From Diabrotica undecimpunctata (lineage: Eukaryota; Arthropoda; Insecta; Coleoptera; Chrysomelidae): DNA of 64,000 nt. The translations under genes were made by a program, and so were the position numbers. The notes beneath the pieces are model-generated. The model saw only the letters and a program-made list of their open reading frames with translations, did no database searches and was not told the origin of the DNA. Shown piece by piece: positions 5,251 to 48,937 of the stretch (position 1 is the first letter of the stretch; each line of letters begins with the position of its first letter). Where the stretch lies: the NCBI RefSeq assembly GCF_040954645.1, contig NC_092807.1, positions 806,001 to 870,000 on the forward strand, in the 5' to 3' direction.

Positions 5251-5375
5251 GTCGCAATCATTTCGGCATTCTAGCGCGCACTCAAGCGCCTCCAACATGC
5301 ATTCACATTCGACAACTGTCGGGAACAGCATTTCCGCGCATCCTCTGTTACCTCTCGCTGACACCAACCTGAGCG
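5251..5375 (+). CDS. Cdep: Cdep exon: Ser/His-rich linker
   Basis: The acceptor is a pyrimidine-rich tract ending in CAG at 5248-5250, and the donor is GTACGT at 5376. Only one frame is open; it reads SQSFRHSSAHSSASN, then HSTTVGNSISAHPLLPLADTNLS. It enters in phase 2 and leaves in phase 1, which joins correctly to the exon at 8858 (AGC G|TG GAA). The sequence is low complexity and probably disordered, as expected for the linker that follows the FERM-adjacent domain in FARP proteins. The other two frames have stops (TAG near 5272, TGA near 5370). Confidence 0.85.
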
Positions 5376-8300
5376 GTACGTACTCCAATCATTTTTTTTT
5401 TCTATTTTTAGTAGGTACTGTGTTTGAGCTTTGTGGTTTGGCTTAGACCCCTCGATATGAGCACATTTTTAACACTTTTTATGCTACTCTAAAACAACGA
5501 TGAATATGCACTACCTCAAAACTAAACACGCAAGCAAATAATACTTTTTTTCAAAGCGGAAAGATGCAGTAGAAACAAATTTATACAGATCAAATGTTCA
5601 GTGATGTTTCTGATCCAAATGTTGCCCAAAGCAATAATAGAAATACTGAAATAATACACTCGCAAAAAAAAACGCAACGGAGAAAATTTTGGTCAAATTC
5701 AAAGTATTTTAGTTTTTTTACTTTTAGCCCTATTTTGATGATTTTTTTAGCACACTGTGTAAAAATTTATAAATTTTAATTTAGTACAGTGAGTTTTTTA
5801 ATAAAATTTTGTATTTGACTTAGTGTACGGGGTTAATTAAAACGTGGTTTTTTATCCTAACTTTGAAACATCCTGTGGAATAATTCGGTTAGCGGATTTT
5901 CGAAAAACCTTGTTTTTCGGTTGCAACCATGTCTTCTAAGTATTATGTTTTTGTTTCATGTGAACATATGGATTGGTTCATTTTTAGGAGCTAAATGACT
6001 TTCCACCCATAATTTACGACTTTTCCTATTATTACCAATATCTTTTGTATTAATTTGTAATACGACGACAGATATCAAAGAAATGTCATATCGACATTCC
6101 AGAAGCACTGTATTTAAATATTGATTAAAAGCAACGACATGATCTTGGTTTTAATGAACAATGATAACAATAACAAAACATAAAAGACAACTTAAATATA
6201 ACTTAACCCCTGTAACTTTGTACGCAAATAACAAAAAAAAACTACTAAAAAATAATACTTTGTATTTGTATTGCCTGCCTATACACGTCGGCTCATGCTG
6301 TCTATGAGGTTGCGAATATCATCTTGATGGATGTTTTGCCATTCCTCTTCTAGAGCCAAGCGAATTTCGTTAATTGATGCTGGTACGACTTCGCGACCTC
6401 TAATATTTCTACCAAGCATGTGCCAAACGTGCTCAATTGGGTTCAGATCTGGCGAACATGCTGGCCAGTTCATTTTATTATAACCAACTCTAAATATTGC
6501 GTGACACACTTTGTAGAGTGGGGTCGCGCATTATCTTGCATTAATAGAAAATCATCGCCGATATATTAAGAAAAGGGTGCTACGTGATTCGCTAAAATTT
6601 CCTCCATATACCGGTGTGCAGTCAACGAACCCTCAATAAATATCAATTCAGTGTGCGCCTCTAGGGATATTCCTGCCCATACTATCACCGAACCCCCTGC
6701 ATGGCTAACGCGGGGACTGAAAGCGCACTCTGCAACTCTCTCTAGTTCGACGCCATACTCGTTCTCTCCCATCTGATGAGTGAAAACAGTATCTCGACTC
6801 ATCCGTAAAAAGAACATTACTCCATTGTCCTAAATTCCAATGTAAATGTTCCATGGAAAATTGTAGTCTAGCCACTCTGTGCCGTGGAAGTAATTTGGGC
6901 CCAGTTGCTGGTCTGCAACTTTGCAAACCAAATTCATGTAATCTTCGACGTACTGTAAATACACTTACATTATTGTCTCGAACCTCTTGAAGCTGATTTC
7001 TTATTTGCACCGCTGTTAACCCTACACTGCTCAATGTATCATATATGAAACATACCGAGAATTTACATGTATAACACAGTGCAATAATATTAAGTCCAAA
7101 CAGCACTATGTAACATATTCGATATATACCACTTTATTATATTATACACATTTTGTAACCTTGCAACGTCGTCTAATATTTTATAAAGCGCGCGAATTAG
7201 TCAATTATCACTTAACCGTCGTGTTGACGATAACGCTGAGTTTAAAATATTTTATATAGGTGGTTATTAATCAAAATTAAATGTGCAAAATTGCGTTTTC
7301 TACTTATTACACGTCCACAAGTCATCCAGTATTAGTTTTATTTAGCATCTACTATTATTTTTAAAGGTATGGTAAAGAATTTGTTTGTATCATTTATGAT
7401 ACATAATGTAATTTGGGTATCATTTTAGATGTCTAGCTGGTATATGAAGAGGCCTTTATCAGATAAAGAATTGCAAGTTATAGTCGACAATTGGGATGAT
7501 AGTGAAGATGATTGTGATGTAAGTGATATTGGCGACTTGAATAATGATGCAGATGTAGAAAATATAGACGTATCAAATATTCCAGTGGTATTTGAAGATG
7601 AGCTGAGTGAAGCAGAAATGGAAGATACAGCAGAAAATGAGCGGGGACGACTATCTACAAGTTCTATTGAACAGGATATACAATTGAAGAAAAACAACGG
7701 GCCAATAAGCTATATTCCTGCAAAAGATATTCGAACAGATGCTGTAAGACATTGGCCAATCTACACTAGCGATCGAATCCGATGCAAAAAGCTAAATTGT
7801 AAAAAATTAACCTATATTAAATGTGACAAATGTGGCTTGCACTTATGTTTTAATAAGGATTCAAACTGTTTCTTTCAATTTCATCAATAAAAATATTATA
7901 CTATAAAGGTACTTAAGTATTTTATTTCCTATATATAATTTTGCCCAAATGCACTTTGTATCAAATTTGATACATTACCGAAAATGTCCTGAAATTTAAA
8001 AATAAATAACTTTAAATTTTTTTAAGCATTTTTTTCGGACTTCTTTATAAAATAGCTATACATATAATTTTTTCCAATCTAAAATTAAAAATTGAGCAGT
8101 GTAGGGTTAAATAACGATTTCGTGATGAATGTAGTACTCTAGCCACATATTCATAATTTCGCCCAGAGCAACGGCCTTCGCACAATCTTCGACACTAAGA
8201 ACCATGATCAATCAGTTATTACAAAATAACTCCAAAATAATCATAATTAAAAAAGTTCTAAATTGTGGGTGGCAAATTCATTTGGCTCTAAAAAATGAAC

Positions 8301-11300
8301 CAAGGCATATTTTGACATTAAACAAAAACACAATGCTTAGGAGACATGGTTGCAACCGAAAAATAAGGTTTTACGAAAATTCGTAAACGGAATTATTCCA
8401 CAGGATGTTTCAAAGTTAGGATAATAAAACCACGTTTTAATTAACCCCGTACAATAAAAATTTATAAATTTATACACAGTGTGCTAAAAAAATCATCAAA
8501 ATAGGGCTAAATTAAAAAAATTTAAATACTTTGAATTTGACCAAAATTTTCTCCGTTGCGTTTTTTTTTTTTCACCTGAGTGTAGATTATTTCGTGTTTA
8601 GAGTTACGGTAGCGGATATTTTCATTAATGAACTTATTATTATAACATAAAAAGAAGCAATCTGAAGTTTTTAGTGTTTTGAGGTGGAGCTTGAAGTTCA
8701 TAAACTTTTTTGTGGCATATAAGTCGCCAATCAATAGAGTTTACTTAAGGTTCATTTAAATTGATATAATGGTTTTGGTGTACTGATCGTGGTAGTAGTT
8801 GTGGGAGATATGTAGTGAATAGAGAAATCCTTGTGTAATAATCGCTTAATTTCACAGTGGAAGTGTCCAAACTCTCGGCGTCGCTGGGTTCGATGGGGGC
8901 CCATGTGGGCCAACGACCGGGTTCTCCGACGACGAAATCAGCCTCTCGCCACCTCGGCACAGCTACATCTTGGAGCTCGGTCCCCGACACCAGGCCTTCC
9001 ACTCTGCCCCCCAATCAGACGATGAGCTCTCCCGAGGAGTCTGCGATCACGAGCCCAATCCATACGAAAGCCACTATTACCAGCTCTCCGCTCGCCGTCC
9101 GCGCAGCTGTTCACAGGGCAGATACAGGTACCACTCGCACCCACATTACTTCCCAGATGCCCTCTAGTCACACCTTCGCTAACAATTATCCCTCGCAGAC
9201 GCAGTCGCAAAATGATCTAGGCCACGAGATCCTCGATACCACACCTGATTATACCTACCAAGCAATCACTACTCACCCCAAACGCCAAGTATGGCGTCGT
9301 AGCGCTAGTTGTAAAGATCTCTATGACTTCAGCTTCGAAGAAACCGGTCAAGCTAAACGTAGAGCTCATCCCCCGAAACCGCTCGAGAAGGCAGTTATTA
9401 GCTTCGAGGAGCGTAAGTTAGAGTCTCCGATCACGCGTTACGATGATCACCCGATCTATAGCGCTAGTTCCCGCGATAGTAGCTTAGAGATTCACCAAGA
9501 TATTATGGTGGCCGACGAAAAGGTATATTCTAGTAGCTATCCCGGTACCACCTCGTATTCCCAAGAATCCGTCGAAGATCCAGGTAATTACGATCTTCGC
9601 GATTCGCAAGACGACCTCTCCCACGACAGTTACGAGCTTATAGAAAAATCCGACGACGATTACAGTACTTCGGGCGAATATAAGTACCGAAAACGCAAAC
9701 CCTTCAACACTAGAAGCTGTAGTTTAGATTCTAACAATTATTTGCCATCGGATAGTGAATCCGAGCACGAGAAACGGCATAAATGCAAGAGTAGTTCGGA
9801 CGTACACGAAAACCTCTTCACTACAGAAGACCCGAGAGATTTCCCGAGGGAAATCATTCCGAGAAAATCAGACGGTAGTTATTACAAACAATTCAAGCAA
9901 CTCTCTCGAAATTCCAGTGTCGAATCCAAAACGTCGAAATCTAGTAGGGAAAGTCTTAAGAAATCCCATAGAGAGCGGAGTTTTGGATCTCGCACGTCTA
10001 GTCAAGAATCTCGATCAGACCACGAAGCCAAAATACCGGAACGCAGAAATAAAAGCCTAGAACAAATCGATAGTAGAAACGGATTTATTGATTCTAGAAC
10101 GTCCAGTGTCGAATCTAAGAGCGAATACTATGACGCACCTTCTAGATTCATGGACAACGTCGTCTTCCAACATCCTTACGATAGAAAAATCAATTTCGAA
10201 AGAAACTACGGTATTCACAAACTTCCAACACACGACAATATGGAAATGAATCGCAATTTCGCCCATGTTCATTCGATAAGCCTACAAAATGTCGAAACGG
10301 AACAAAACATTAAAATAAATCGTCTTCTAGCAAATCTCGAACAAAACACTGTCCCTAGAACGCAAAAATCATCGCATAGTTACCGATCTCACACGGTGGA
10401 CCACGAAAGACACAAGTCAGAACCCATTTGGCCAGAGGATATTCCTCCGGTTTGGCCGTCTCAACAAGCGAGCACACAGCGATCCACCGAATCGGAAAGT
10501 AACATATTCAGCTTTGACGAAGAAAAAATACAGTCGCTTCAAGACAGTCTGGAGTCGGACGTGTGCCCTGACCATGCCTTTAGAGTAGTCCCTAATATCG
10601 ACAACAAATTAAAGAAAGTCGAAGAACGTAAACCCTACAGAGACGTTTTTATGGAGATAGAGCCTCGTATTGTACACGACCTACCAATGCACCAACCTAT
10701 TGAACGGACAAAGTCTGATCCCAACTCACTAGCTCGTCAAAGACTCAACTCTAACAACAGAAGAATGTTATTGATGCATCAAAAGTCCATAGACCTCACA
10801 CCGGCCGAGTCTAGCGATGAAGATTACTTGTATAAGCAAATACCCAGTGCTCCACCTATCATGAAGTACAGAGGAACTCATTTCGAAATGCCCACAGCTG
10901 AATTCGGACACTTCGATATCATAAAGAGGGAAGGCGAAGGCTTGAAAACGAAATTTGAAGTGCCGAAGAGTCAATTCGAGGTTTTAGGAGCTAAAACACA
11001 GTCAGATTTGATCAACTTACCCCCTAAGGACGAAGATCTTACCTACATCCTACATAAACGGCACGTGATGAACGGAGCAGCTAGAAATGAAGAATTGAAA
11101 CCGTACGAAATACCAGACGTGCCCAAGAAGTCGCAAGCAGAAGTAGAAGAAACCCCCAAGACTGATGAAACGAAAAAATCGAATTTCAAACAAAAGACTG
11201 ATCCTCCAGAGACATCGTTTCTCTTTACACAAAATATCGATTTATCCAAAATAGATCCAGTTACGTTAGAAGTAGACAAAAGTCAGATGCCCGTACAGCA

Positions 11301-14300
11301 CCTTTCCAGTCCAAAGAGGGACATCACTCACATCGATCCGGTGCTATTAGAAGCTTTGAATTCAAAATTGAGTCAGATCGAAAGCGATTCGCCTACAAGC
11401 TCCAAAACTGAGAGCATCCATCCTCTTAAGAAAATAGTAATAATTCAACCGGACAAACAAATTAAAAAGGAACTTCCCAAACCAGAAGACAAACCTCTTC
11501 CAAAGATAGAATTAAAAAAGGAAATCGAAAAGCCGAAGACTAAAATCAAAACTGATATAAAGCCGAAACGAATTATAAAACCTAGGATGCAACCTGGCAA
11601 AAAAGGAGGAAAGTCGAACAAAACCAAAGTTAGAATAACTTCGTTTAGTTCCGACGACGAATCGCTGGACTCCGATGACGTATTTGGTAGCGCAGAAGCC
11701 ACACCTACAAGAATAGAATTCTCGCCTCCACAGATGAGAAAAGAAATGGAATCTATTTTGAAATTTGAGTCGGAAAGGAAGTATCTTCAGTATACGATGT
11801 CATCGACGGAAGTCGAAGGTTCTCCGCCGACTTCGAGAAAGAAGAAGGATAAACAAAATGAAAACGGACTAGATGCTATTCCTACAGAGCTTCGACGTAT
11901 ATCCGAAAGATCCTTCTCGATTCCTAGTTCTGAAGATGACTTCAATATAAAAACGACGGATCTTCAACCAGTTTTCACAGACCCTCTTCCCGAACCTCTA
12001 GTAACTGTAGATGAAAACTCTATGGACGAAACGCTCAAAGAAGATTATTCTACTGACAAGGAATTGACTACGATCGACGATGAAAGAGAGAAAGAACGGG
12101 AAAAACAGTTACTGCAAGCCGAAATAGAGAACGACTTGAAAAATTTGCGAGTGCCTTCGAAGACAAGAATAACCGAAATACCTTCACCTAGCTTAAGAAA
12201 ACAAGGCCAGAGTCCTTTGTTATTTGCTCACGCGCGTTTGAATCTCTCAGAAGGATCGGCCTTTTCCCTTTTACAAAAACAGCAAGCGTTAGAATCTCCT
12301 ATAGCCGGTAGAAGAGCTAAAAGCCTCGACGCACCTGTAATAGCTGTAACTAGGTTACCACCGCTGAATGCCTTTTCTAGTAAAGACGATACTGTAGCCG
12401 AAGAAGACCAACAGATGACGGACAAAGATAGCGGCTTAGAAAACTATTTGGTGAGCGATAAATCGACGGAAGAAAAATCTGACACGGACGACGGTTTTAG
12501 AGCACCAGAAATAAGAACCCCTTTGCCAGACGAAGCTCCCAATAAGCCTCTACCAGATCCTCCAAGACCACCAAAGCCTTTGCCCAAAATTCCTACGAAA
12601 CTAGCTAAAACAGATATCTTGAAGAAGGATCCTTCTTCAAACAATGAGAAAGAACGAGATCAAATAGTGCCCGATGTTACCAGTAAAGCAAAGAAAACAA
12701 GCAGGACCACTTTGCAAACCAAGCACACTCCGAAAGTTACCAAATCGAAACCGCCGATTAAACCTTCGAAAGAAAAAGAAAAAGTCCCACCTAAATCAGT
12801 ACCGGCCAAGATAAAAGTTACAGCCAAACCGGAAAGTCCAAAAACAGCTAAACCTGTACCTCAAAAGGCGTCATCAACAGAAGGTGCTATCAAAAACGAA
12901 AAAGACGAACAAAAATCTCTTTCTGCTCAAAGTTCGTTGAATCTACCCGAAGTAAAGAGAACAAAGAGTCAAGAAATCGAAACTACAAAGAAGTCTATAC
13001 CTAAAGAAAAAGCAAGATCGCTGGAAAAACTAGAGTTGAAGAGAATAGGAAGTAAAGAACGTACTAAATCTCAAGAAGACTCTGAACCGGACGTAGCTAA
13101 GAGAATAGAAAAGCAGCAAATGCTGTACGAAATTGCCATACAACAAACTAAAACTTTAAAAAGCCCTGTTAAGGACGTTCTTCCCGTTTTTCCTCAAGTA
13201 GAGGAAATGGTGAGAGAACGTGGTGGCAAGTTAGAAATTAGCATCAATACGATTGAACCGAACGTGAGTTTAGAAGAAGCTATCATCATTACGAAGTCGC
13301 CCAAGAAACTGGACAAGAAAATGGGAGAAAAACTTACAAAGAGTCTGGATCTAAACGTACCCGACGAAAACGAGAAGGCTGTGTCACGTCTTGGAAAGAG
13401 TTTGGATCTAGAAAACCGCCAACAAGACAGCGAGCAGTCAGGAAATGAATTTGACTTTAAACCTGAAACGATCAAGAGTATTCAAGCGAAAGATTTGGAA
13501 GAGAACTCACCTGATGCTGCAGTAGTACAAGAAACGATCACCGCAGATGTTCATACCGCTCCAGAAGCTACAGAACAAGAAATAACTATAAAAGAAGTCG
13601 CTCGAAAACCTAACGATTTTTTTGAGAAACGTATGTCGCCGAAGCCTCCAGACTTGGGCAAAGTTGACACCAAAAGTTCCTCAGATTCACAAAGTATAGA
13701 AAAGATAAGTTTGGGCGATTCATTGGATATCAGATACATCGACGAATCTACAGGAGATTCGTCCTATAAATCCGAAAAAGATGCTAAGCTAATAGCGGAA
13801 ATGCAAAAGGCATCAAACACTGTAAGTAAATTCTTAAGGAAGAAAATAGAAAAAAAACGACGTGATGAGCAAGTCGTACGAATAACCAGCGAGGAAGAGT
13901 CTCTGACAGAAGTTAGTGAATTGAAAGGGGAAATCGACAAGAATCTTCTCGTAGTATCGGAAGGACAAAAAGACGCATTGCACAAGCTAAACATAGAAAG
14001 AAGCAGATCTGAAGATACCGGATCTTGGATAACAGTCGAATGTGAAGAATATATGGGCACGGAAGAATCCCTCGACTACGATAATGTCACGTTGGAATCG
14101 CCTGAGAAAAATCTAGACGTAGAAACTGAACTGAAAACACCAACAAACATTAACTTACTAACCGCAACGACAAAAAGCAAACTAGATATGCTGAAACGAA
14201 GCTCCGACCAGTCTAGGTCGAGCGATACAGGCTCGTGGACCAGCGGAGAAAAAGATATTTCCCCCGGAAAGGAAATTAAAGAGACAGATGAATCTAGCAC

Positions 14301-17300
14301 CAGTTGTGCCATCGGCAGAGCTATAGGACTAAGTCAAAACATAGAAATGTTCACGACGAAAGATCTGTTAGATAAAGGCTCACCTTCGGAATCGGAAGGT
14401 CCGAAAAGTCCTAGAAGCCCTAGAATATGCGTATTAGGTAGAGCTTTCACCATCGACGAAGGTTCGTCTTCTCTAAAACTCGACGATTCAAGTTCAGATG
14501 AAGCTAATGATATCCCCAAAGATCTCACTCCTATTCAGGAAAGCCAAAAAGAAGAAATGGAAGAGCCGACTGTGCAGAAAAAGTCTCCGTATCCTTTCGA
14601 AGAAAAATGGTCCAATGATTCAGAATTGAGTCAACGCTTGCATTTGAAACTAACTAAAAAGCTGTCATCGGCAGAGAAAGGTAGTATCTCGTCCATAGAC
14701 GATTCTTTGTCTGACAGAAGAAAGAACGGGAATGTTTTAGATAAACCTACTCTTTATTTATCGGAACGTTTGTCTACCGAATCAAGAAATTCTCTAGATA
14801 CCGAGTCCAGTTCTGGAAGTATCGGGGCAGTATGTAAAGGAGCTAAATCCAACGATATTCCCAAAGGGCTCAGTTCTACGTGGAAAGCTTTTCCACTAGA
14901 CAGTTCAGGTTCTGAAAGTTTTGAAGATAATTTGCTCCCACCCGATCAGGATTTAGAACGGGAATACTTTCTTTGCAAGGATAATAATGGAGAGTATTCG
15001 GCAATGTCTGATGTTTATTACAAACAAGACAGTGATGCTACACCTACTAAAGATGACACTGAGCTACCTGAAGATTTGGCTAACTTCCCAGCCAACTTCG
15101 GGTATCCTCTGTCATCGATGACGGGTCTTGGATTGTCCGGACCTGATATATTACAAGGATATGCCGGTGGAGGCTACATTTCTAGAACTCTATCTAGAAT
15201 ATCTGAAAGAAGTACCAACTCCGAAAAATCCAGCGTCGATGACGATTCCACCAAAGCTAGTACTCAAAGTGACAGCTTAAATGACGAGTCTCTTGCGTCT
15301 AGCAACCCTCAAATTAGCATCAGTTCTGAGTCGCCTAGTCATGCGAGACTATCAGAAAATGAAAAGAAAACTCCCACAAACAACGAACCGAAAGAGGAGG
15401 ATGATAAACTTAGCGATTTGAGCAAGCCTAGCGAGAGACAGGAGCCTCTTCCACATCTAGCTAGTTTACTACAGAGGCAAATATCAGATGATAGAAGAAC
15501 TTCCGCAGAAATGGCTGAACTATCAATGGATGATATTGAAATAATAACTTCCGAAAGGGGATTGAGATTGAGACGACAAGGTTCTGATGATACCATTATC
15601 GATGAGGAGTGTTTCGAACCGGAAGCAAGAGAAATCCGGTCTAGTAGTCAAGAGAGCGAAGATTGGCCCCTCCCAGAGATTCCTCAACAGGGCCAAAAAC
15701 TTCTCGCAATGCACGAATTCCCTAGTAGTGATACTTCCCAACAGACAACTCAAGTCTTTAGACCTCCTTCCAAGACCATTCCGAAAACGTTCGGTCTGAA
15801 GGGCTCCTTAAAGAGTCAAGACTCAGAGCAATGGCCCAGTCCACCTTCGAGCGTTGTAGAGCCTCCTATAATAGGTAATGTAGAAACGTTCTATATAACA
15901 CCACCGCAGGAAGCCTATAAAGTCGTAGTAGATTCAAGTACCGTGAGTACTTACGACAACGATTCTAATTCAGATAACGAAAATAGAACTATAGATCCTG
16001 ATACAGAAAAAACTCATACCTACGAAAATGTAGCTTGCGAAAATATTAGCGAAAGTATTTCGGAAAGTTTAAGTGTAGGGCCGAGTGGCGTAAAGATAAT
16101 ATTGGAAAAGAAATCCCAGGGATCGAATTCTGACGAAGATCTGAACATTTCGAATCTTAACGATGATGTTTTTGTCGACGCTCTAGATAGTAGTAAGCAT
16201 GAATTAAGACCACCGACCGCAATGAGAAGAAGTACCGCTTCTGACGATTCCTCTCATTCGCACAAGAGTGAACGAAAAGGTTCAAGAGGCTCCCACGGTT
16301 CGTACTCCGAAGAAGACTGTACCAGTTCAATGGGAACGAATTTAGAAGACGGTACCGTTAGATATGCCCTGAAACCTACCAAATGCACGCACAGTTCTCA
16401 TTCTGAAGATACGTCGATAGCTCTAAGTCTTTCTGAGTGGTCAAACAGCACAAACACCGTAAAGTTCCAGAATTTATCTAGTACCAGCGGTACTACTAAA
16501 AGTAGTTCAGGTTTAAAAAGTGATGAAAACTCTCTGACCGATATAGCACACTCCATATCCGAATGGTCGACTAGCAATACTAGTAGTACTTTAAAAGCAC
16601 AGCAGAGTCCTGGACTGCAGTTTCAGAAGTTATCATCGACGTCTACAGGGGATAGTACTTTAACAGAACGAATGTCCAATATAAGCGACTGGTCGGCGTC
16701 AGAAACCAAACCGTTTTTCCCGACGACCATACCAGAACGAAATGCTCCCACTAGATTGGGATCTAGCATCGACATCGAGGAATTCTCGCTTAATGCGGAT
16801 CCTAAAGGAGTTCCCAGTCCTAAGAACATACCATCCGAAGATCTAGCGTTATTGTCCACCAATATACCAACTAGATTAGAAGTAAAATGTTTCTCTAAGT
16901 CAACAGAGAGACCGATTGTTATACCGCAAAACTTATCCGATACAGATAAGTCCAGTAGCTCAATGGAACAACGAACAGTCCACACGCAACGGTACGACAA
17001 AGACAAACAGAAGTACATGCAGAAGCATCCACCTACGAAGAGTACCGAGAGACCGGTCAAAGTGCCACTTAAATTATCGAAATGTGCGCCTTACTATTCT
17101 AGCAGCTTGAGTTCTGAATCGACGCCTTTGGCTGGTACCAGTCCAGTGCCGGCGGTTTACAAGACAGCGACAGTACCACTAACTAGAACTCACAGAAAGC
17201 CGATCACCAAGACTTTATGTCAGGCTAAAAGTCCTCCTAGCGAGAACGACTCTACAAGCAGTGTAGAATCTCCTAAGAGTAAATCAGAGAGAGATAGAAG

Positions 17301-20300
17301 GGGTTATAGGAGGAAAAGACAGATGCAAAACCAGCGTAGAGCAAGATTGGAGAAGGAACAGCAAAGTGTTGATGAGTACTACTTCGTGGAGCACGAAGCT
17401 GGTCTAACCGAGTACAACGAGTACATACGGAATCGAAACATGGAGGAAATGGCATCGAATTTCCAGTACGAGAGCGTTCTGGCAGAAGACAGTCCCATAA
17501 TGCAGTACTCCGAAACTTTAGAAGAGGGATACTATCCGGACGATTCCCAATCGGGCTCGGACATTATGAGAATGGAACGGGAAGATGACGATCGCTTCGA
17601 GATCGTAGAAGTCTTCGACGTCAATAACATTCCTCCGCCGTTGCTAGAAGACGATTACGAGAACGAGACTTCGCCGCAGATTTGATTTTAATGACATTTT
17701 GTAGGGGTTCTTGATCGGGCATGGGTATGTCGTCGTATTCGGTTGTCTTTTGCTCCTCGCGTATTTCCTTTTGATCCTCTTGTTCCACTTATTGATTTTC
17801 CTCGGAGTTTTGGAAGTTTGTTAGTAGAGTTCTTTAAACAAAATATATTTTTAGGTAAATATTGAGTTTTGTTCGCGAATAAAAATAATAAACTCAAGGC
17901 AATAACAAAGGACAGCAAATTAAAGAAATATAAAGTTAGTATTTTTTCTATTTTTGACGAATTTTGCCTAAAGATAAATAAGTAGCTGCATATTTTGGAA
18001 GTAATGCAAGGGATTTCAAAATACTAGCTAATTTGTCTCTGTTTAAAAACGTGTTAAATATTAGTACCAGTTAGATGGAGTTCTACTGAGTATCTGTAAG
18101 TTCGTCTATCGATGTTATCTAATAATCCTATTATAGATAGACTTAAAAATAAATAGGGGAGAAGAGGGAGACTTGATCCCACCGTTACATTTTTTCAGAT
18201 ATTTTTTTTATTTAACCGATCTAGAACATTGATAGTTTAGTGGAACATTACAAATTTATCACAATATTACTTACCTTAACCCCTAACATATTTCGAACAT
18301 TGATTTTACTGTTAAAATACACTCAGGTGCAAAAAAATCGATCCATTCCTTATTTCTTATTTATTTGAAGTTTTATAATTTTAGAGACATTAAATTACGT
18401 ATGTAAATTTAGGTGTACCCTCGTATACGAGAAATAAAATAATATTTTTAATATTGCTTTTTATATTTCTTAAAAAAATTGGTATTTCAGGTTTTTGTCA
18501 AAAAGGGTCTGAAGCAAGTAGATATTTATTGAATGTTGTTTTTAATTTAACAACCATACTAGTGTAGTGATTTTATTTTCAAAACGTGTTATATTTTTAT
18601 TTAATTATCCTTCCTAAATGTCTCTAACTCCGAAAGATGCTGCAAGGGAGGTGACTTTAGTTCAAGATGGTCGTAGCCAATATTATGCATCTGAAATGTT
18701 GGGTGTTAGTCAATCTTCGGTTCAAAGAGCAGTTCGGCGTTTTAGCGACACCGGTAACTTCACAAGAAGACCAGGATCAAGTCGTAGAAGGGTAACATCC
18801 GAAAGAGATGATCGATTTCTGGTCTCATCATGTTTGAGAAATCGGCATCTAACTTCAGTTGAACTAGCAAATCGTCTGAACGAAGTGAGAAATGTGGATG
18901 TAAGCAGATGGACAGTTCGTCGACGACTTGTAGAAGGTAATTTATTATCCAGAAGGTCAGCCCTATCTCCAATACTATCCATAGAACATCGCAGAGCTCG
19001 CCTTGCTTTTGCAAGAGAACATGAAAACTGGAGTGATGCAGATTGGAGCAAGGTATTGTTCTCAGATAAGTCCAGATTTTGTCTAAGGTCACCAGAAGGC
19101 CGAGAAAGGGCTTGGAGAAGACACGGAGAGCGATATTTTCAATGTAATATTGCGGAAAGAATAAGTTTCGGAGGGGACTCCGTTATGGTTTGGGCTGGTA
19201 TCAGTTCAGAAGCCCATACTGATTATAGATAGAGGTTCTATGACTGCTGCAAGATACATAATAAGTATTTTAGATCAGCATGTGTTACCTTTTGCTCCTT
19301 TCATTGGACATAATTTTATTTTTATGGAGGACAACGCGCGTCCTCACCGTGCTAGAATCGTCAACCAATATATAGAGGAGGTGGGAATTGTCCGTATGAA
19401 CTGGCCAGTTTGCAATCCCGATCTCAATCCCATAGAACATCTATGGGATATGATGGGAGGACGTCTTCGAGCACGAGTACCCCGTCCAAACAACTTGGCT
19501 GAACTTATAGCGGCTCTTCAAGAAATATGGGACCAATTGGATCAATTTGATATCGAGAGGTTAATTACCTCAACGCCTAGACGTGTACAGGCTGTTATAA
19601 GGGACCGAGGGGGAAACACTAGATATTGATTTATTATCAATGTTTTTCTTAATTTCAGGAAGTTTTGAATATTCTTGTATTTTTGAGTTTTGGCGTATGT
19701 CTCTATAAATAAATGATTTTTTTGGATAATCTGTAAAAATTATTTTAATCTAACATATACTTTTACATATATCCCTGATTTAAAACTAATATCTTCAAAC
19801 GTTTTCTTTTTTCAGCAAATAATACCCATGGATCGATTTTTTTGCACCTGAGTGTAGTATGTTCATATGGGATCAGTGTATAGTAAAATAAATTTTAGTG
19901 TGCATTTATAGGGACTTTCGGTCAAAACCATTTCGTTTTGTGCTGTTCCCTTCTTGGATTTTTTTTATCTATCACTAGTTTTTTAGTAGGCCTAGTGGGT
20001 GTAGTAGTCGTAGCTTAAACTCTTTTTTAGGACTAAGTAGTTCAGGCCGGATTATTTCGTACTCTGTATTAGCTCCTGTTGTATACCTAAGTGGTTCCTT
20101 GTTTGTCTCCTTAGACTCTTCATTTTCACCATCTTCCTTAGTTTCACTGCCTTTATGGTCCTTTAAATTTTCAGCCGCATAAAAGTCATGATCTTTGAAC
20201 ACCATCCGATCACAGGCTATACTCAACTAGTTCGGAAACAATTGACTGCAATTTCAATGCTTGCTGCTCTCCCATAAGCTTCAGAAATCAAGTCTTCGTC

Positions 20301-32300: not shown

Positions 32301-35300
32301 GGGTATTGTACCACGACTCATTGATTATAGTTCTATTATGTTTAGATATCTTCCGTCAACCCCTGTCCTCTTCAGCACTTCCATGATTTGTTCATGCCTG
32401 ACTCTATCGAAAGCCTTCTTGTAGTCATTAAGTAGTGTAGCTGACATTCTGGCAGCATGACCCTTCGCAATAATATCTTCTCCTTAAGTTACTGCACCTA
32501 CATCGATGTGTAGTAAGGCATTTTCTCTACTAACACCACTCTGATATAATGAGCTGTCAGTATAACTACGTTAAACCATTCTTTTTGTATTGTTACGTAA
32601 ATATAATTATAATACACTTATACCATATAAATATACTCAGTATAGACTTAGGATTGGCATAATTTATATTTAAAAACCTGTAACAACTGTAACATTTCTT
32701 TTTTAGCATTTTAGTGACCTTAATCGGGGACCTGACGATGGCTAGAAATTGTAGAGCCTGAAATCGGTCGTTCAAGTTACAATAAAATAAGTTATGAGTC
32801 ACTTCTTTCTTATTTTTTACCTATTGAAAATGACTGACGTATGTAAACAATTCATCATTTTGATCATTTCAAAATGCTCGAATTCTCCCGCTTATCAATG
32901 AATGAATTGAATGATAATAGTAAAAATGATTTCAAAAATATGTGTAGTCAATAATATTTTTCGTTCTGTTTTTCTTTACGATGTTTAATGAGAAAAAAAA
33001 TGTTGATATAATAATCATATAGTAATAGATTTAGTCTAAAAATATATACTTTAAACAACTCTGATAATGTTTCCGTTGTCCATTTTTAGTCGATTGTCTT
33101 GCTTTTGACAGTTGTTTTAATGTAGACAGTCATAACAGTTAACCGTTCAACAAGAAACATTAATAAGCATTTATTATATGTAAAACCAATTGCTAAATTA
33201 TATGTTTAATGGTTAAGATCTCATTATAGAGACGGCAATTTGTATAGCAGACACTATCACATCGATTTAATTACGTTATAATGCGATTTAGTGTGTACCA
33301 AGTTCTGCGTGGTTTTCAAATCAGCTCTTTCAGTTATGCAAGGCATATTGTTTTTGGGTTGTGCTTCAGACCAAAGATAAACCAAAGATCGTCGAACTTA
33401 CAGGTCACCATTAGTCGTTTGTGGGTTCCACTTTATTATATTCCCTTTTATTGGGGCTACGCCGGTTCGTATATTCTTTAAAGTTAACAAGCTCTTCCAG
33501 ACAAGACTACTACGTGAATGTCTTCCTTCTTGGGGTGAAGGGTACACAGTGCAAAAACCCTTTTAGTGAGAAGTCGTAAAATAGAATAATAAAAAATGCA
33601 GGTGTTTAGAAAGATTTGATTCAAATTCTTTTTTTGTCTTTTGAGAATCTCTGACCTAGTTTTAGTGACCTGCACGTCTTGCAGAAGTCACAGATGCATC
33701 CACCCAACCTTTTGATTTTTTATGACCAGCATTTATCAATGTTTTGTCCAAATAATAAATTGTTCTATTTTCAGCTCCATATTGCCTGATCTTTTGCAGA
33801 TATCTCTATAATCTCTACAATATCACGCGGGGACTTGTGTTTATTCTGTCCGTAGCTTGAAGTTGAATTTACTTTAGTTTTATGGTGCCTCAGATATTGT
33901 GTAAAGAATATTTCGTTGAATATTTACAAAAGGGTCTGATTTATGAGGTAATAAAGTTTTAGAAAGACATTTAACGAAACTGGAATTTTTTACGGTAAAG
34001 AAAATATGTTATAGAGCCGTAACACCTTGTTTTAGTCCTTAATTTGTTTTTTATCAGTTCTCTTTTGTGTTTCTGCGAAGCGAGACACTCAACTAGACGT
34101 GATTAATAAATTATTTTTGTCTATAGTAACTTCGAATAAGTTTCAGAGTTGTTTGAACCACCAGGGATTTATCCAAACTTTTGTTAACTAATGCTAAGAG
34201 CATATAAAACCGATTGAACATGTTGTTTTTTATTAATTGATAATTTTATTCGATAAATACGTATCGGTAGAGTTCTTCATATTTGTGCTGTGTACAATCA
34301 TTTGAATTTATCAGAACAATTTTTTAATATTATTATTATAAAAACACATAATAGTATCATTCCACTGTAAACGATCAGTTTTCTCGAAATAAATCATACG
34401 ATTTGTCAAAATTTGTGGCTTTTCAATGTTTTCTCTTGACGCTTACCTAACAGGAAGAAGGTGAGCTTATTAACAATTGATTTGGTGTGTCAAATTTTTA
34501 TTTTTTCAGGTAGATTGCTTTAAAAAATAGCCGTCTTGAATTAGAACGTAATTAGAGAATCGCTCCATTTCTAATAAGCGCTTTACAAGTTACTTCGCTT
34601 TTTATTAACTTGTTACAATCACGATCCCATTTATATCAATCAAATTTTACATATTCTTAACCACGATCTTTTATTATTTTGTCATATCAACTACGATTTG
34701 CTTTATTAATTGATATCAAAATTTTTTTTTCGTTTCTATAATTTTTTTTGGTACTATTTTATATGTGCCTCTTACAAAATCCTAAAATTGTTATTTTTCT
34801 AATTTGAACCGATAAAATTTGATTTTGTTTTTTTAACATTTTTAAAACGAACATTTTTAAAGCAATCTATTCCGTTTTGTAGTATTTATTATCGTGTGAA
34901 CACCTTTTTATATTTAGTTCCCTTTTTTTTTACCTTTTTTTCGTACACTCTTATTATATTTGGCTTTTTTTTTGTAATATTTTTACCCTAACAGTTTCTC
35001 TAATATTTCTTACAATTTATAGACGATAGCAAGAAGGAGCTCCTCGAAAGAACCAAAGCCGAAGATGCTAAAATACGCGACAACAACAACTTCTACACTT
35101 CCACTCCGCTCAGGTCAGCTAACGGCAACGTTTCGGAATTGTCGTTGGCAGCTTCAAACGGCAACTACAGTACCACCAATACTCTTAATAGCGACGACAG
35201 TCCTTCTAAGGTTTTAGCTAAAGAACAGCTGATGAACAGTATCAACGCAAATACAATGGTAAATGGTGAGTAAATGCTTTTTGAATAATTGTTCAAACGG

Positions 35301-38300
35301 TTTGATCCATGCAGCTCCATCCAATATTTCAAAAATTGTGTTAATTTCAGGCAACTCAACCAATACGACGACAATCATCGCTGAAATTGAAGGAGAAACA
35401 AAGAAGAAGTCGAAGCATGTCGTTGACAAGACTTATTACATAGCAAAAGAAATTTTAATGACAGAACTGACGTACAAAAAAGATTTGGATGTGATCAATG
35501 TTGTAAGTACACTTTAATTTTTCTCAGATTTATCTGTCCAAGATTTATATACCATACAGTTTCACTAAAATAAGTTTTATAATCAATGTTTAATTTATCG
35601 CCATCAAAAAGGGCACATTATCATTGTCCACATCAGCATATTTTAACTATTAAAACAATTATAATCAAGATTGGCCTTATTCTCATTAAAAGAAGCAAAT
35701 GTGTACCAAAAAACAATCATACTTGTCAAAATCAGTATTATTATCAAAGTGAGCATTACGTAACCAAAATCAGCATATTTTTTTATTGAAAAAAATCGGT
35801 TGCCTGTAAAGTCAGAATTTACGGGCGAAGATTTTACGTGACAACGTCTTTTTCTCGGTAGTATATTTATTGATATGAATATTATTAAATTGCACAATAG
35901 TTGTTTGCAGTTGAAACGCGCTGTTTCTTCTCAATCGACTGAATTACGATTGATTGCAGAGTGATTTAAACTAATAATTTACTTAACACTATCAACATTT
36001 GTCAATAGTATGACATAACCTGTAAACTCAGTTTCTCAACTTTTGTGTCAATCTAACAATTAATCAATCAATCATAGTTTACGATAATGAAATATTAGTG
36101 AACAATTATTTACCTTTATTGTTGTAGTTGTTGTAAATGACGAATCTAAGCACTCCACATTTTCACTACAGACACAGCTGACGATACTTTAACCACACGT
36201 GTGAACTTGTATTATGACGCTTTCTCGGTTTTCCAACGCCAAGAACGCTCGAGAAAGACAGAGACACAAGCACGCACCGATTCAACGCGCCTAATTCTCT
36301 AGTGCTGCGCGCGCAGCGGACCGATCATGTTTGAGTGGGAGAGAGACGCAAGGCATTCGCCGGTCCGGCGGGCCTCTCTCTCGTTCGGTGACTCATCGTA
36401 ACAGACGTGAGCGGGAGTTACACTTTTTCATGAGTGACTCCGAGCCACAACCTAATTTAAGACGTTGTCACGTCAAAAAGTTTTGCAGTCAAGTTCAACC
36501 TTATTGTCAGTGGAGAAGCATACAATCAGCATATTTATACTGTTAAAAGAAACTTTACAATCAAAGTCGGGCCTATTGTCATTCAAATAAGCATATTATC
36601 ATCAAAATAAAGGATAGTCATTGTCAAAATCAGCATTATTGTCAAAGTAATCATCGTAATCAAAATCAGCATATTTTATTATTGAAGGAAGCTTTTCAAT
36701 TAAGTTAAACTTTATTGTCATTAAAGTAAACATTATCGTCAGAAAAATCAGCATATCTTTGCTATAAAGAACCTTGATAATAAAAATGGGCCTTATTGTT
36801 ATTAAAAGAAGCATATTATTGCTGAAAAAGGATTATCGTTATCAAAATCAGCATATCATCAATGTAAGCAATATCGTAATTAAAATCAGCGTATTTTCGC
36901 TATTAAAAGAAGCTTTACAATCAAAGTAGGGCCTATTGTCATTCAAATAAGCATATCATCGAAATAAGCATTATCGTAATTAAAATCGGCGTATTTTTGC
37001 TATTAAAACAAGCTTTACAATCAAAGTAGGGCCTATTGTCATTCAAATAAGCATTTTCTCATCAAAAGAAAGGATCGTCATTGGTACAATAAGCATTATG
37101 GTAATCAAAATCGGCATATTTTTGTTATTGAAACAAACTTTCTAATCGAGTTTATCATTATTGTTGTTAATGAAGCATATTATCAACAAAAAGTGATTAT
37201 ATAGTTATCAAAATGATGATCACCATGAAAGTCAGCATTCTCGTAATCAAAATCGTCTATTAAAATAAGCTTTACAATAAAAATCAACCTTATTATCATT
37301 AAAAGACGCATAATATTGCAAAAAAGGATTTTCGTGATCAAAATCCGCATATCATCAAAGTAAGCATTATCGTAATTAAAATCAGCGTATTTTTGCTATT
37401 AAAACAAGCTTTACATTTAAGTACGGCCTATTGTCATTCAAATAAGCATATTTTCATGAAAAGAAAGAATCGTCATTGTCACAATAAACATATTATCGAA
37501 ATAAGCATTATCGTAATTAAAATCTTCGTATTTTTGCTATTAAAACAAGCTTTACAATCAAAGTAGGGCCTATTGTCATTCAAATAAGCATTTTCTCATC
37601 AAAAGAAAGGATCGTCATTGTTACAATAAGCATTATGGTAATCAAAATCGGCATATTTTTGTTATTGAAACAAACTTTCTAATCGAGTTTATCATTATTG
37701 TTGTTAATGAAGCATATTATCAACAAAAAGTGATTATATGGTTATCAAAATGATGATCATCATGAAAGTCAGCATTCTCGTAATCAAAATCGTCTATTAA
37801 AATAAGCTTTACAATAAAAATCAACCTTATTATTATTAAAAGAAGCATAATATTGCAAAAAAAGGATTTTCGTGATCAAAATCCGCATATCATGAAAGTA
37901 AGCATTATCGTAATTAAAATCAGCGTATTTTTGCTATTAAAACAAGCTTTAAATTTAAGTACGGCCTATTGTCATTCAAATAAGTATATTGTCATCAAAA
38001 GAAAGGATCGTCATTTTCACAATAAACATTATCATCGAAATAAGCATTTTCGTAATCAAAATTAGAATATTTTTGTTATTAAAACAAGCTTTTAAAATCG
38101 AGTTCAACATTATTGTCATTAAAGAAGCATATTATCAACAAAAAAGTGATTATATGGTTATCAAAATTAAGATCATCATGAAAGTCAGCATTATCGTAAT
38201 CAAAATTATCTATTAAAACCAGCTTTATTCCAATAAAAATCAACCTTATTATCATTAAAAGAAGCATATTGTTGCTAAAAAATTATTCTCTTTGCCAAAA

Positions 38301-41300
38301 TCAGTATTATCATCAAAGTAAGAATTATGGTAATTAAAAGGCGTATTTTTGCTATTAAAACAAGCTTTACAACTAAAGTTGAGATTATTGTCATAAAAAA
38401 AAAAGATCGTCTTTGTCAAAATTAACATTATCATCGAAGTAAGCACTATCGTAATTAAAATCGCCGTATTTTAGCTATGATAACAAGCTCGGGTCTTATT
38501 GTCATTAAAAGAAGCATATTACCACCAAAAAAAAACATTATCGTTACCAAATTCAACGAATGATCGCAATCGAACTCATCACTGAACGGTTTTAAATTAT
38601 ATTAGGACCTTTTTCAACCCAAAATACTTTCTCATCGTCATTTTAGTGCCAGCATATTATATTGTATTGTCGTATTCAAATAATAAACCTCAAGTTCATT
38701 CAAATCGTTTACTGTTTTAGTGGTTCAGGGATGAAGTAGGAAAAGAAGAGCCTGAAGAATGTCAAATCCTCTTGTCACTAATAGCGCCTTTAGCCCAGGC
38801 GCACGGTCTCCTGGTAAAAGATCTAGAAAAGAGGCTAAAGAGTTGGGACATCAAAGGAGGTCCGAGGGCTGTACCTATGGCGGAAAAAATTGCCGATGTC
38901 CTCCTGGCACATCTTCCGCCTCTCTTGCCGGTAAGAACTGTGTTTTCTACGTTAAGAATAGATTCTTTTGGCATTTATCTCATCCCTACAATTATCTTGT
39001 AGACGTTTTAAGAACTTTTTTTTTCGTTTAGATTTATGAAGAGTACCTAGACGGCCACATGCTAGTCCTAGAACGTCTCGATACAGCTTTCAAACAGAAC
39101 AACCGCTTCGAGCAGCTCTACCGCGACTTCGAAACTCAAAAAGTCTGTTATCTTCCGCTCACGACGTTCGTTCTGAAACCTCTCCACAGGCTGCTCCAAT
39201 ATCAGTCGCTCTTGAAACGGCTTCTGAACTACTATGACGAAAACCATCCCGACAGAACGGACTGCAGAACCGCCATAGATACGTTGAAAGACTTGATGCA
39301 GCCAGTTTCGGAAACTCTGGAACAATCCAAGAACCTCGCCACGTTGTGCGAGCTGCAAAGAGATATCGTCGGTTTCGACAATCTGGTACAACCTGGAAGA
39401 ACGTTCATCAGGCACGGGTGTCTCTTGAAGCATTCGCGGAAGGGCTATCAACAAAGAATGTTCTTTTTGGTAAGTGTTTTTGATTAAATGTTTTCTTTAT
39501 ATTTTGCTTTCTCCTACCGTTTCTGAAATTGATTTCATTTCCCTTTTATATTCTTTTTTGTTGTCTTTATTATTTTCTTGTTATTAATATTGCTTGTTAT
39601 TTGTACACGTTGCCTTCATTTCTTTAATTTTTCTATTAAGTAAAAGAAGAACCATTATTGTTGATTACCCACCCTTTTTTCTTCTCACTTTTATTACTAT
39701 TTCATTTCCTCCTTCTCCTTTTACTCTATTATTTCATTTTCTCCATTTTTATCTGTATCGTTAACTCTTATTTCTTTACTAGTGATTTTGCTCGTCACCA
39801 TGCGACGGGGGATCCAATCAATTATATCTACAATCACTCCACTTATTTTTTTCTCTTTCTGTTCTTTAAGGTTAGGATGACAACAGAATAATATTTTAAT
39901 CTGTTGTACAACTTTCATAAGAAATAAGTCACTTTTGGAGAGTCGCTGAACTTTTTGCGTAAAGTCGCCTTATGAAATCGACCTACGTATGAAATCAGCG
40001 TAATTCTCGAAAGCTCGAGTTTTGTATTATATTTTTTACCCATAACCAAATTCAGTGTTCACATTGTCCAATGTCAGTAGTTCAGATTTCGTTGTTTAGA
40101 TGGCGTTAGGATATGTAATCAATACAGTATTATAAATTGAACGTATCGTTTCAAGAACAAAATATGATTGACATATGGTAGTTCGTATTACTTTCTTAGA
40201 TGGCGCCGTTACCTTAGATTAGATTAGATTAGATTATGTGAGGTCGTTAAGGCCATGCGGCCTCACCGCACTTCGACCTATAGAGGTCTTTTGTGCATAC
40301 CTTAATCTAGTTAAACTCTAGAATGCCAATACTTCTGATGAAGTTGATTAGCTTCCTAGGTGACTTGTTTCCTATGTCAGAGGATGCCAGACTGACCTCT
40401 CCTAGGAATTTTAGTCTTTTGCAGAACAGTGCTACGCAGTTGCATAGTATATGTTCTGCCGTTTCTTTTTCATTGTGACAGAAACGACAGTTCTCACTAT
40501 CTGATTTGCCCATCTTCTTGAGATGATATCTCAGAGGGCAGTGACCAGTGAGAAGGCCAGTGACCATTTTGATATCTTTTTTACTCATTTCGAGAAGGCG
40601 GTTTGTTGCAGTAGGCGACACTTTTATGAGCCTTTTTGCTTGCCTTTGTCCTGGTGTGTTAGACCAATATGATCTTAGTTGATTGAGTTCCCAGCTACGG
40701 AGTTCCTCTCTGATGTGGCTTTTCGATAGTCCACAGAAGGATTCCGGACCCTGGAATGGGGTATTAGCTCCTTCTTTTGCGAGGCTGTCAGCTTCCTCAT
40801 TTCCTGCAATTCCCTTGTGACCTGGCACCCACATCACAGTTACATTGTTGCGTTCCGCCAGCTTCTTGAGAGATTGTTTACAGTCCCAAACCAACTTCGA
40901 CTCACATGTAAATGACTTTAGAGCCTTTAAGGCGGCTTGGCTGTCTGATAAAATAAGGACTCTTGCCCTAGGGGTGTCTCGGTTGAGACATTCTTGGGCA
41001 CTTATGTCTATAGCATGTATTTCTACCTGGAAGATAGTTGGGGCGTTTCCAAGAGATTTAGATAGCCTGAAATTGGGCCCAGTAACTCCCACTCCTGCCC
41101 TTTCATCTATCTTAGATCCATCCGTATACCATACGAGTAAACCTTCTTCCACTTTTGGTTCAATTTCTTCACCCATTTGGTGGTTTTTTATGACCACTTC
41201 AAAGGGTGTTTCAAAGTCGAATTTGACTGGCATAGCATCTGTCGGCATGTCCTTAGAATCCAATGGAATTTCTTCTAAGATTTTCAGGTGGCCAACTAGA

Positions 41301-47606: not shown

Positions 47607-48937
47607 CGAGGCGTGTTTTTTAAGTAAGTACCGTTTTGGAATTAAAAAAAGACGTGCAAAGATATGGCAATAATTTTATTTTTACATGAAAGCCTGTACC
47701 TTAATCTACTTTTCTACATAATTTACGTGAATATTGAGGCACTTGTCATAACGTGGCACCAGTTTTTGAATACCCTCCTAATAAAATCTGCCGCCTGACT
47801 TGTTAACCACTGCATCACAAATGTTTTGACTTCGTTATCGTCTTGAAGACGCTGACAGCCCAGGTGTTTCTTCAAGTGCTGGAACAAATGGTAGTCGCTG
47901 GGCGCCAGAGCAGGGCTGTATGGAGGATGATCTAGAGTTTCCCATTTAAATGATTTGATGAGATCTTTGGTCTGATTAGCCACATGTGGACGGGCATTGT
48001 CATGCAGCAAAACGATACCCTTACTCAACTTGCCACGTCTTTTGTTCTGGATTGCACGACGCAGATTTTTCAATGTCTCACAATAAGACGCTGCATTGAT
48101 TCTCTCATTACGAGGCAGAAACTCCACTAGCAATACTTCTTTTCTGTCCCAAAAAACTGTGCACATGATTTTCCGGGCAGAAATTGTTTGCTTAAACTTC
48201 ACTCTTTTGGGTGATGATGAATGTCGCCATTCCATGGATTGTTGTTTCGATTCTGGTGTTACGTAGGCCACCCACGTTTCGTCACCAGTAACAATTTGGT
48301 CTAAAAAATCTTCACCTTCACTGTGCTACCGCTCAAGGAAAGTCAATGCACTGCCTAAACGTTGGGTTTTGTGCAAATCCGTCAACATTTTTGGAACCCA
48401 ACGTGAACACAATTTCCGGTAATTCAAATACTCGGTAACAATGCGATACAAAACACTACGAGAATACTGAGGAAAGCAGTCGGACAATGATGAAATTGTA
48501 AAGCGTCTGTTTTCTCTCACCTTTTCGTCCACTTTCTGCACCAAATTTTCATTAACGACCGAAGGACGACCACTCCGTTCTTCATCATGCACATTTGTGC
48601 GGCCATCTTTGAATGCTCTCACCCATTTCCTTACCATTCCATCACTCATAATGTTTTGTCCGTAAACTTCAACGATCCCACGATGAATATCGATCGGTTT
48701 TACGCCTTTAGCACTAAGAAATCGTATAACAGTCCGTACTTCACAATCAGCGTGACTCACGATTGTTGGAGGCATCTTAAACACTGTAGTAAACAAGTAT
48801 ACAATGAAGAATCAAACTGTAATGGCGTCAGTGCGTAGACAAGAGATGTAGGTAACCAGCGCTCATGCGCGGAACGCCGACCGTAGCGCTGCGGCGGCGG
48901 AATCGCAAAACGGTACTTACTTAAAAAACATGCCTCG
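47607..48937 (-). mobile_element. mariner transposon, 1,331 bp
   Basis: Inverted ends CGAGGC(G/A)TGTTTTTTAAGT at 47607 and mirrored at 48937 (about 28 bp) are flanked by TA (47605-47606 and 48938-48939). The length is the canonical 1.3 kb. One transposase on the minus strand fills the interior and is interrupted only by one nonsense codon. Confidence 0.94.
47723..48796 (-). pseudogene. mariner DD34D transposase with one nonsense codon
   Basis: Frame 48796-48326 starts upstream of MPPTIVSHADCEVRTVIRFL and has the paired helix-turn-helix region (KPIDIHRGIVEVYGQNIMSD, then MVRKWVRAFKDGR and ERSGRPS). After a single in-frame TAG (48326-48328) the same frame continues HSEGEDFLDQIVTGDETWVA with the first Asp, then GIVLLHDNARPHVAN with the second, and APSDYHLFQHLKKHL with the third Asp, the mariner signature. 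The stop stands where related proteins usually have Tyr (YHS). No other defect is seen, so the copy died recently or is still read through. Confidence 0.93.

Follow-up and report, generated by a model that had tools for sequence, protein, structure and literature searches.

FARP/Cdep proteins have been studied as Rho-family guanine nucleotide exchange factors (GEFs) in dendrites, synapses and morphogenesis. In the beetle Diabrotica undecimpunctata, an open frame of 8.8 kb lies inside this gene, and the question is whether the frame is part of Cdep or a gene of its own. We analysed a stretch of 64,000 nucleotides around it (contig NC_092807.1, positions 806,001 to 870,000, forward strand; hereafter the window, in whose positions all coordinates are given). 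An earlier note, made from the letters of the window alone, had read the frame as an alternative tail that couples the FERM module to a giant chain, a potential scaffold or competitive form of the locus. We consider it likely that the frame is the read-through form of one Cdep exon, giving a 3,366-residue FERM protein without the RhoGEF part that would serve as a membrane scaffold.

A giant frame in phase with Cdep

The frame runs from stop to stop over 8842-17685 on the plus strand (2947 codons) without an internal stop. A 3' splice site, tttcacag/TGG, lies at 8858, and from there to 17685 the frame encodes 2,942 residues. In 300 base shuffles of 8858-17685 the longest frame had 203 codons (mean longest, 112), compared with 2,941 in the real sequence. 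That the frame is coding and conserved is supported. The Cdep linker exon ends in ...AGC G/gtacgt, in phase 1, which matches the phase of the giant frame, and the acceptors at 8858 and 35023 both take phase 1. No GT dinucleotide occurs in 17642-17685, the end of the tail. The agreement in phase, the frame's own stop codon followed by a poly(A) signal, and its position upstream of all DH/PH exons (35023-44993) are as the earlier note had described them. The features of this part of the gene are as follows.

5251-5375, plus strand: Cdep linker exon after FERM-FA, 125 nt, phase-1 end; joins 8858 or 35023
8858-9127, plus strand: shared cassette, 270 nt or 90 codons; serves as an internal exon in GEF isoform X1 and opens the giant terminal exon
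9128-9133, plus strand: internal 5' splice site CAG/GTACCA; its use leads to the GEF isoform, and the giant tail is predicted where it is ignored
9128-17685, plus strand: giant tail coding sequence, the read-through part of the composite terminal exon; stop codon 17683-17685
17878-17883, plus strand: AATAAA poly(A) signal, 193 bases past the stop

Beneath the tail there is also an antisense frame of 155 codons (16623-17090, minus strand), which is taken as chance.

A cassette shared with the GEF isoform

The key feature overlooked in the earlier note is the internal donor and the sharing of the cassette. Among the GEF isoforms read, which were part of those listed, Cdep isoform X1 of D. virgifera (P0122, 1,119 amino acids) has the sequence VEVSKLSASLGSMG...AAVHRADT between the linker and the DH exon, and isoform X2 (P0124, 1,029 amino acids) is without this cassette. 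The 90 cassette codons of X1 correspond to the opening 270 bases of the giant exon: the reading frame is unchanged, and a splice leads from 9127/9128 to 35023 across an intron of 25,895 bases; the window cassette differs from P0122 in translation at 2 residues. The tail exon is therefore probably a composite terminal exon, because its first 270 bases double as an exon of the GEF isoform. The internal 5' splice site used elsewhere, which marks such exons, is seen in the X1 protein model and in a pair of Euwallacea models. The proposal of an alternative tail on Cdep thus stands insofar as FERM and tail are joined in 34 of the 120 listed homologues, but the tail is not a wholly separate exon, as the GEF isoform also contains the 90 codons with which it begins.

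A model in which a weak donor accounts for the switch was rejected, the donor being just moderately weak by U1 pairing. The cassette is also overlapped by a second frame of 103 codons (GSVQTLGVAGFDGG...SDDEISLSP...SDDEL, 8858-9165, plus strand), which is entered by skipping of the linker exon and is used in part by protein models of Aromia and Callosobruchus; dual coding of the cassette is possible.

The boundary between tail and GEF in other insects

Two models of Euwallacea fornicatus, the giant 'Cdep isoform X1' (P0016) and the GEF protein 'FERM, ARHGEF... isoform X3' (P0133), share 547 identical residues and part at ...AAVHRADT, continuing as HRADT/G into the tail and as /DD into the DH part. 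We aligned 20 tail/GEF pairs picked by hand, with the GEF relatives taken from the best 120 of 196. The orders of proteins without a species name were assigned from their best named GEF relative, and those of named genera from general knowledge. Eight pairs have the same boundary: three from beetles (Euwallacea, Callosobruchus and tenebrionid-like), two from Hymenoptera (Lasioglossum/Polistes, and Solenopsis/Polistes one residue early), one termite-like (with Coptotermes), one Auchenorrhyncha-like (with Clastoptera) and one Heteroptera-like. The boundary is readable by eye, the aligner having overrun it, in five others (window/D. virgifera, Rhynchophorus/Sitophilus, the Zootermopsis pair, and two aphid pairs, with Cinara and with Rhopalosiphum).

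Two short, FERM-only proteins were seen in Anopheles. AGAP001287-PC (P0183, 574 residues) keeps the GEF linker and diverges at ...QDGHSS into a short unrelated end, and the AGAP001287-PB-like P0178 likewise leaves the linker at ...QDGHSS for an unrelated stub. In these isoforms the same switch may exist in a reduced form.

Identity of the gene and its GEF exons

Translation of the linker and the exons from 35023 to 44993 gave 648 residues, all 648 identical to the D. undecimpunctata FERM/ARHGEF protein P0123. These exons are listed here.

35023-35265, plus strand: pre-DH exon; takes phase 1 from the linker or the cassette
35351-35502, plus strand: exon in which the DH (RhoGEF) domain begins
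38721-38930, plus strand: DH exon
39032-39469, plus strand: exon with the DH end and PH1 start
42419-42692, plus strand: PH1 exon
42775-42923, plus strand: exon between PH1 and PH2
44446-44705, plus strand: PH2 exon
44900-44993, plus strand: last exon of the GEF isoform, ending in TAG

Pfam matches FERM_N, FERM_M, FERM_C and FA at the N terminus of both P0123 and the Diorhabda giant isoform P0003, and RhoGEF, PH (two stretches) and SOS1_NGEF_PH in P0123; the set that defines a FARP/Cdep gene, FERM and FA with DH and two PH domains in one gene, is present. Among PDB entries, the Diabrotica GEF isoform is matched best by 4gzu (FARP2) and 4h6y (FARP1). Identity to D. virgifera is 97.6% for the tail (LOC114325326) and 99.0% for the GEF isoform. 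The FERM exons lie outside the 64-kb window, in which tblastn with residues 1-385 of P0003 gave no match at E ≤ 1, and we infer them for Diabrotica from P0123 and P0122. Judged by its sequence, the giant isoform would be a product of the Cdep gene and not a GEF protein, as it is without the DH-PH-PH series.

Spread of the tail among insects

The search for tail homologues found 127 proteins, the best 120 of which were taken; they come from beetles, Hymenoptera, a caddisfly, a moth, Diptera (Lutzomyia and Eupeodes) and Timema. A search with a 21-sequence alignment found 85 proteins and added Parnassius and relatives of the termite, hemipteran and aphid GEF forms. Among the matches listed there is no named tail from Drosophila melanogaster, a crustacean or a non-arthropod, which is weak evidence of absence as these searches demand shared 5-residue words and a length window, and as the matches include rows that carry no species name. 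FERM and tail stand in a single protein model in the 34 homologues mentioned above, 32 of which keep the linker motif, and in the precomputed Pfam annotation DH/PH is absent from 33 of these 34 giants, the exception being P0011, which has PH. End-to-end alignments of the assembled 3,366-residue product were obtained with Diorhabda isoform X1 (82.6% over 3,412 columns), with Euwallacea X1 (65.4%) and with Harmonia (58.3%); in Diorhabda, the DH/PH part is annotated apart as a 591-residue model (P0148). The insect tail models carry the database names 'uncharacterized', 'titin-like', 'MAP1B-like' and 'Cdep isoform X1'.

To our knowledge, vertebrate FARPs have no giant tail, as the earlier note had said of known FARP proteins in general; for insects this does not hold, since database models with the tail exist. 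That note had also expected a search of insect proteomes to find a conserved basic and then Tyr/Glu-rich end. The end is similar among beetles, but across orders internal Ser-rich islands are the best conserved parts. The earlier interpretation is thus partly supported, being right in outline and wrong in the exon anatomy and in the absence of the tail from other insect FARPs.

The tail protein

The assembled giant product has 3,366 residues, a mass of about 379 kDa and an isoelectric point of 5.7, and the window frame is composed of 13.8% Ser, 9.6% Glu and 8.8% Lys. Over the tail, no Pfam family was matched above the cut-off (one sub-threshold match, TBD, had E 0.075), and a search of PDB sequences gave no match at E ≤ 1. 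An identity with titin, MAP1B or futsch, as suggested by database names, was rejected, as neither Ig/FN3 nor MAP1 domains were found by the Pfam or PDB search; names of the titin and MAP1B type probably reflect composition. Two regions of the tail, for which 28 (first) and 26 (second) homologues were aligned, hold the following islands.

10642-12426, plus strand: first conserved islands, ERTKSDPNSLA, HQKSIDLTPA, RITSFSSDDES, FAHARLNLSEGSA, RRAKSLD and NAFSSKDDT; predicted disordered, mean predicted local distance difference test score (pLDDT) 44.4
14719-16821, plus strand: second conserved islands, RTLSRISERSTNSEKSS, WPSPPSS, HSSHSEDTS and SEWS repeats; predicted disordered, mean pLDDT 41.6

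The islands, RLNLSEGSA among them, are near-invariant and Ser-rich, and their conservation extends to beetles, Hymenoptera, Diptera, Trichoptera and Timema. For the island alignments, 25 and 20 tail proteins were chosen for spread from the 120, and the window was added. In columns with at least 14 rows, conservation in at least 85% of the rows holds for 95 of 288 serines, a share that only Trp exceeds (5 of 10). The near-invariant RTKSDP fits what we take to be a 14-3-3 pattern. A reading of the islands as basophilic-kinase or 14-3-3 sites was rejected, with Arg at -3 unenriched (P = 0.51). A folded tail domain was likewise rejected on the AlphaFold models of the two conserved regions, in which helices appear in the first region only (model residues 61-64, 233-248, 370-379 and 478-500); the tail is predicted to be disordered.

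Alternative explanations

A number of results weigh against a read-through form of Cdep. FERM is missing from 86 of the 120 listed homologues, and although many of these are taken to be genomic contigs of about 10-20 kb, in which introns would hide the FERM part, they include NCBI gene models from Tribolium, Photinus, Onthophagus, Lutzomyia and Eupeodes. In the NCBI annotation of D. virgifera the tail stands as a gene of its own, LOC114325326, with its start at window position 9157. The hymenopteran giant P0073 aligns with the assembled product in pieces only (76% over 449, 70% over 76 and 27% over 567 columns). Among the 20 tail/GEF pairs, three are fuzzy (Nasonia, Timema/Bacillus and Proconiini) and four are uninformative (P0248-P0250 against Cloeon or Ladona). 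The tails of Diptera, Trichoptera and Lepidoptera have no cassette in common with the GEF isoforms listed; in these orders splicing may lead to the tail by a different route, or the tail may be its own gene. By U1 pairing the internal donor ranks sixth of the nine donors in the gene and is not exceptionally weak, and Arg at -3 is found at 10 of 95 conserved serines against 15 of 193 others.

One rival is a separate tail gene that lies within a Cdep intron and has a promoter of its own and an internal start codon near 9157, as in the NCBI annotation of D. virgifera. In its favour are the tail models that stand apart in D. virgifera (P0002), Psylliodes, Tribolium ('titin-like'), Photinus and Onthophagus, and the dipteran and lepidopteran tails without the shared cassette. 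However, the proposed start Met is poorly kept: in rows P0002-P0052, which are taken as beetles, the PSSH motif that follows it was found in 30 of 51, preceded by Thr in 20 and by Met in 10. Because the Met is kept in just 10 of the 30 motif rows, a separate gene is disfavoured. Moreover, the beetle similarity extends upstream to the exact splice acceptor (VEVSKLSASLGSMG) and across the 90 codons shared with the GEF isoform, and the 34 joined models point the same way, so that we regard a separate gene as unlikely. A combination of the two, in which the composite-exon isoform coexists with an internal promoter from which certain tissues or lineages (Diptera, Lepidoptera) make the tail alone as a protein, has somewhat better prospects, while still falling well short of an even chance. 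It would account for annotation that is mixed between species and for dipteran tails that have a long N-terminal sequence of their own and no cassette, but the promoter and cap are hypothetical here.

That the tail is normally joined to DH/PH in a single FERM-tail-GEF giant is suggested by the Callosobruchus analis model P0011 (3,779 amino acids), which has all three parts. Yet it is one row of the 120 listed; the tail in the window has a stop codon, AATAAA 193 bases on and no GT in 17642-17685; and P0011 lacks DH residues encoded in the window and enters the tail in another frame, both marks of an automatic model. The join in P0011 is probably a product of automatic annotation, and we consider such a giant very improbable. 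A chance frame or the remnant of a mobile element, which the transposon fragments in the window might bring to mind, is hardly credible: shuffles reach at most 203 codons against 2,941, and full-length beetle homologues, motifs near-invariant over several insect orders and the lack of any Pfam family above the cut-off tell against a mobile element. Conservation refutes both. The read-through form of a Cdep exon is the reading that we retain.

Mobile elements around the gene

Upstream of the giant exon, the intron that follows the linker contains inverted repeats at 5664-8569 (61 nt at 95%, with inner arms of 74 and 174 nt) that suggest a transposon of about 2.9 kb; a frame of 153 codons in this putative element (7429-7890) had no Pfam match. 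The other elements are as follows.

18618-19629, plus strand: Tc1-like transposase in two overlapping frames (HTH_Tnp_Tc3_2, DDE_3), about 0.9 kb past the tail stop
40307-42176, minus strand: retrotransposon fragment with reverse transcriptase, RNase H and a weak zf-RVT, in the intron between 39469 and 42419
47723-48811 (minus strand), 54897-55814 (minus strand) and 62669-63652 (plus strand), 3' of Cdep: mariner-like transposase pieces (Transposase_1, HTH_48) and DUF659 and DUF4371 frames

Proposed mechanism and comparison with known systems

We propose that the linker exon at 5251-5375 is spliced to the acceptor at 8858. Use of the donor at 9128 would remove the 25.9-kb intron, and DH-PH-PH would follow; passing over this donor would give the giant tail, with the transcript ending near 17.9 kb. 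By a third route the linker would be spliced straight to 35023, producing the short GEF isoform X2. On this scheme Diabrotica would make a joined FERM-tail mRNA, and the choice at the internal donor would presumably be regulated. Binding to membrane lipids and receptor tails is reported for vertebrate FARP1 and worm FRM-3, and the FERM-FA part may do likewise; along the long, predicted disordered tail, partners may find many docking islands that are Ser-rich and perhaps phosphorylated. The tail would thereby replace the enzyme part and turn a signalling switch into a membrane scaffold.

The closest parallel is frm-3 of Caenorhabditis elegans, the FARP1/2 orthologue. One locus is reported to give FRM-3A (FERM-FA, no GEF) and FRM-3B (GEF, PH, PH), and frm-3b is produced by splicing inside the last frm-3a exon (PMC7260190), which we read as a composite terminal exon. 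FERM-FA is reported to be necessary and sufficient for the clustering of GABA-A receptors, and FRM-3 to recruit LIN-2/CASK (PMC7260190; also PMC9632837). The two loci are alike in yielding a GEF-less FERM-FA form and a FERM-GEF-PH-PH form, and FERM-FA without GEF and splicing in a shared last exon are both found at the insect locus, as a matter of architecture. FRM-3A has no recognised C-terminal domain. The loci differ in that the insect tail continues past the cassette for about 2,850 residues and has conserved islands. The two switches may be either homologous or convergent. A GEF-free scaffold with a partner-docking tail is suggested by this analogy, because the insect locus follows the logic of frm-3 with a far larger tail, and a scaffold role of the giant form modelled on FRM-3A is plausible. 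The composite-terminal-exon switch is known from frm-3; the giant conserved tail is the new part, and our literature search of open-licence PMC papers found no description of the insect giant form.

A wider proposal, which we advance tentatively and consider rather doubtful, is that across Ecdysozoa FARP had an ancestral two-state donor switch between a RhoGEF and a GEF-free receptor-clustering scaffold, and that the insect scaffold became giant, conserved and phospho-tunable, organising synapses or junctions. The insect locus offers a concrete test of whether the scaffold/GEF split of frm-3 is ancestral. If many insects make from this gene a form of more than 3,000 residues without GEF activity, knock-downs or tags on the shared FERM exons would have hit both forms, and non-GEF phenotypes may stem from the giant form; Cdep tail would also become the name of several insect genes now called 'titin-like' or 'MAP1B-like'.

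The GEF isoform itself resembles vertebrate FARP1 and FARP2 and Drosophila Cdep, all of which have the order FERM, FA, DH, PH, PH. The FERM part of FARP1 is reported to bind phospholipid, SynCAM 1 and Plexin A, and the DH-PH-PH structures to be autoinhibited (PMC6041286). With respect to the exon, composite terminal exons with an intronic poly(A) site, such as those of the secreted/membrane switch of immunoglobulin M (IgM) and of CstF-77 intron 3, likewise have a 5' splice site within the terminal exon, in a large intron (PMC3708835); in Cdep the intron is 25.9 kb. Unlike these, read-through of the moderately weak donor in Cdep would add 8.6 kb of coding sequence and give a larger protein instead of a shorter one. 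The 480-kDa AnkG and Drosophila Ank2 are membrane-binding adaptors to which a single giant exon adds a very long disordered chain. In architecture Cdep is comparable, but the ankyrin exon is an internal cassette, whereas the giant exon of Cdep is terminal and removes the catalytic module.

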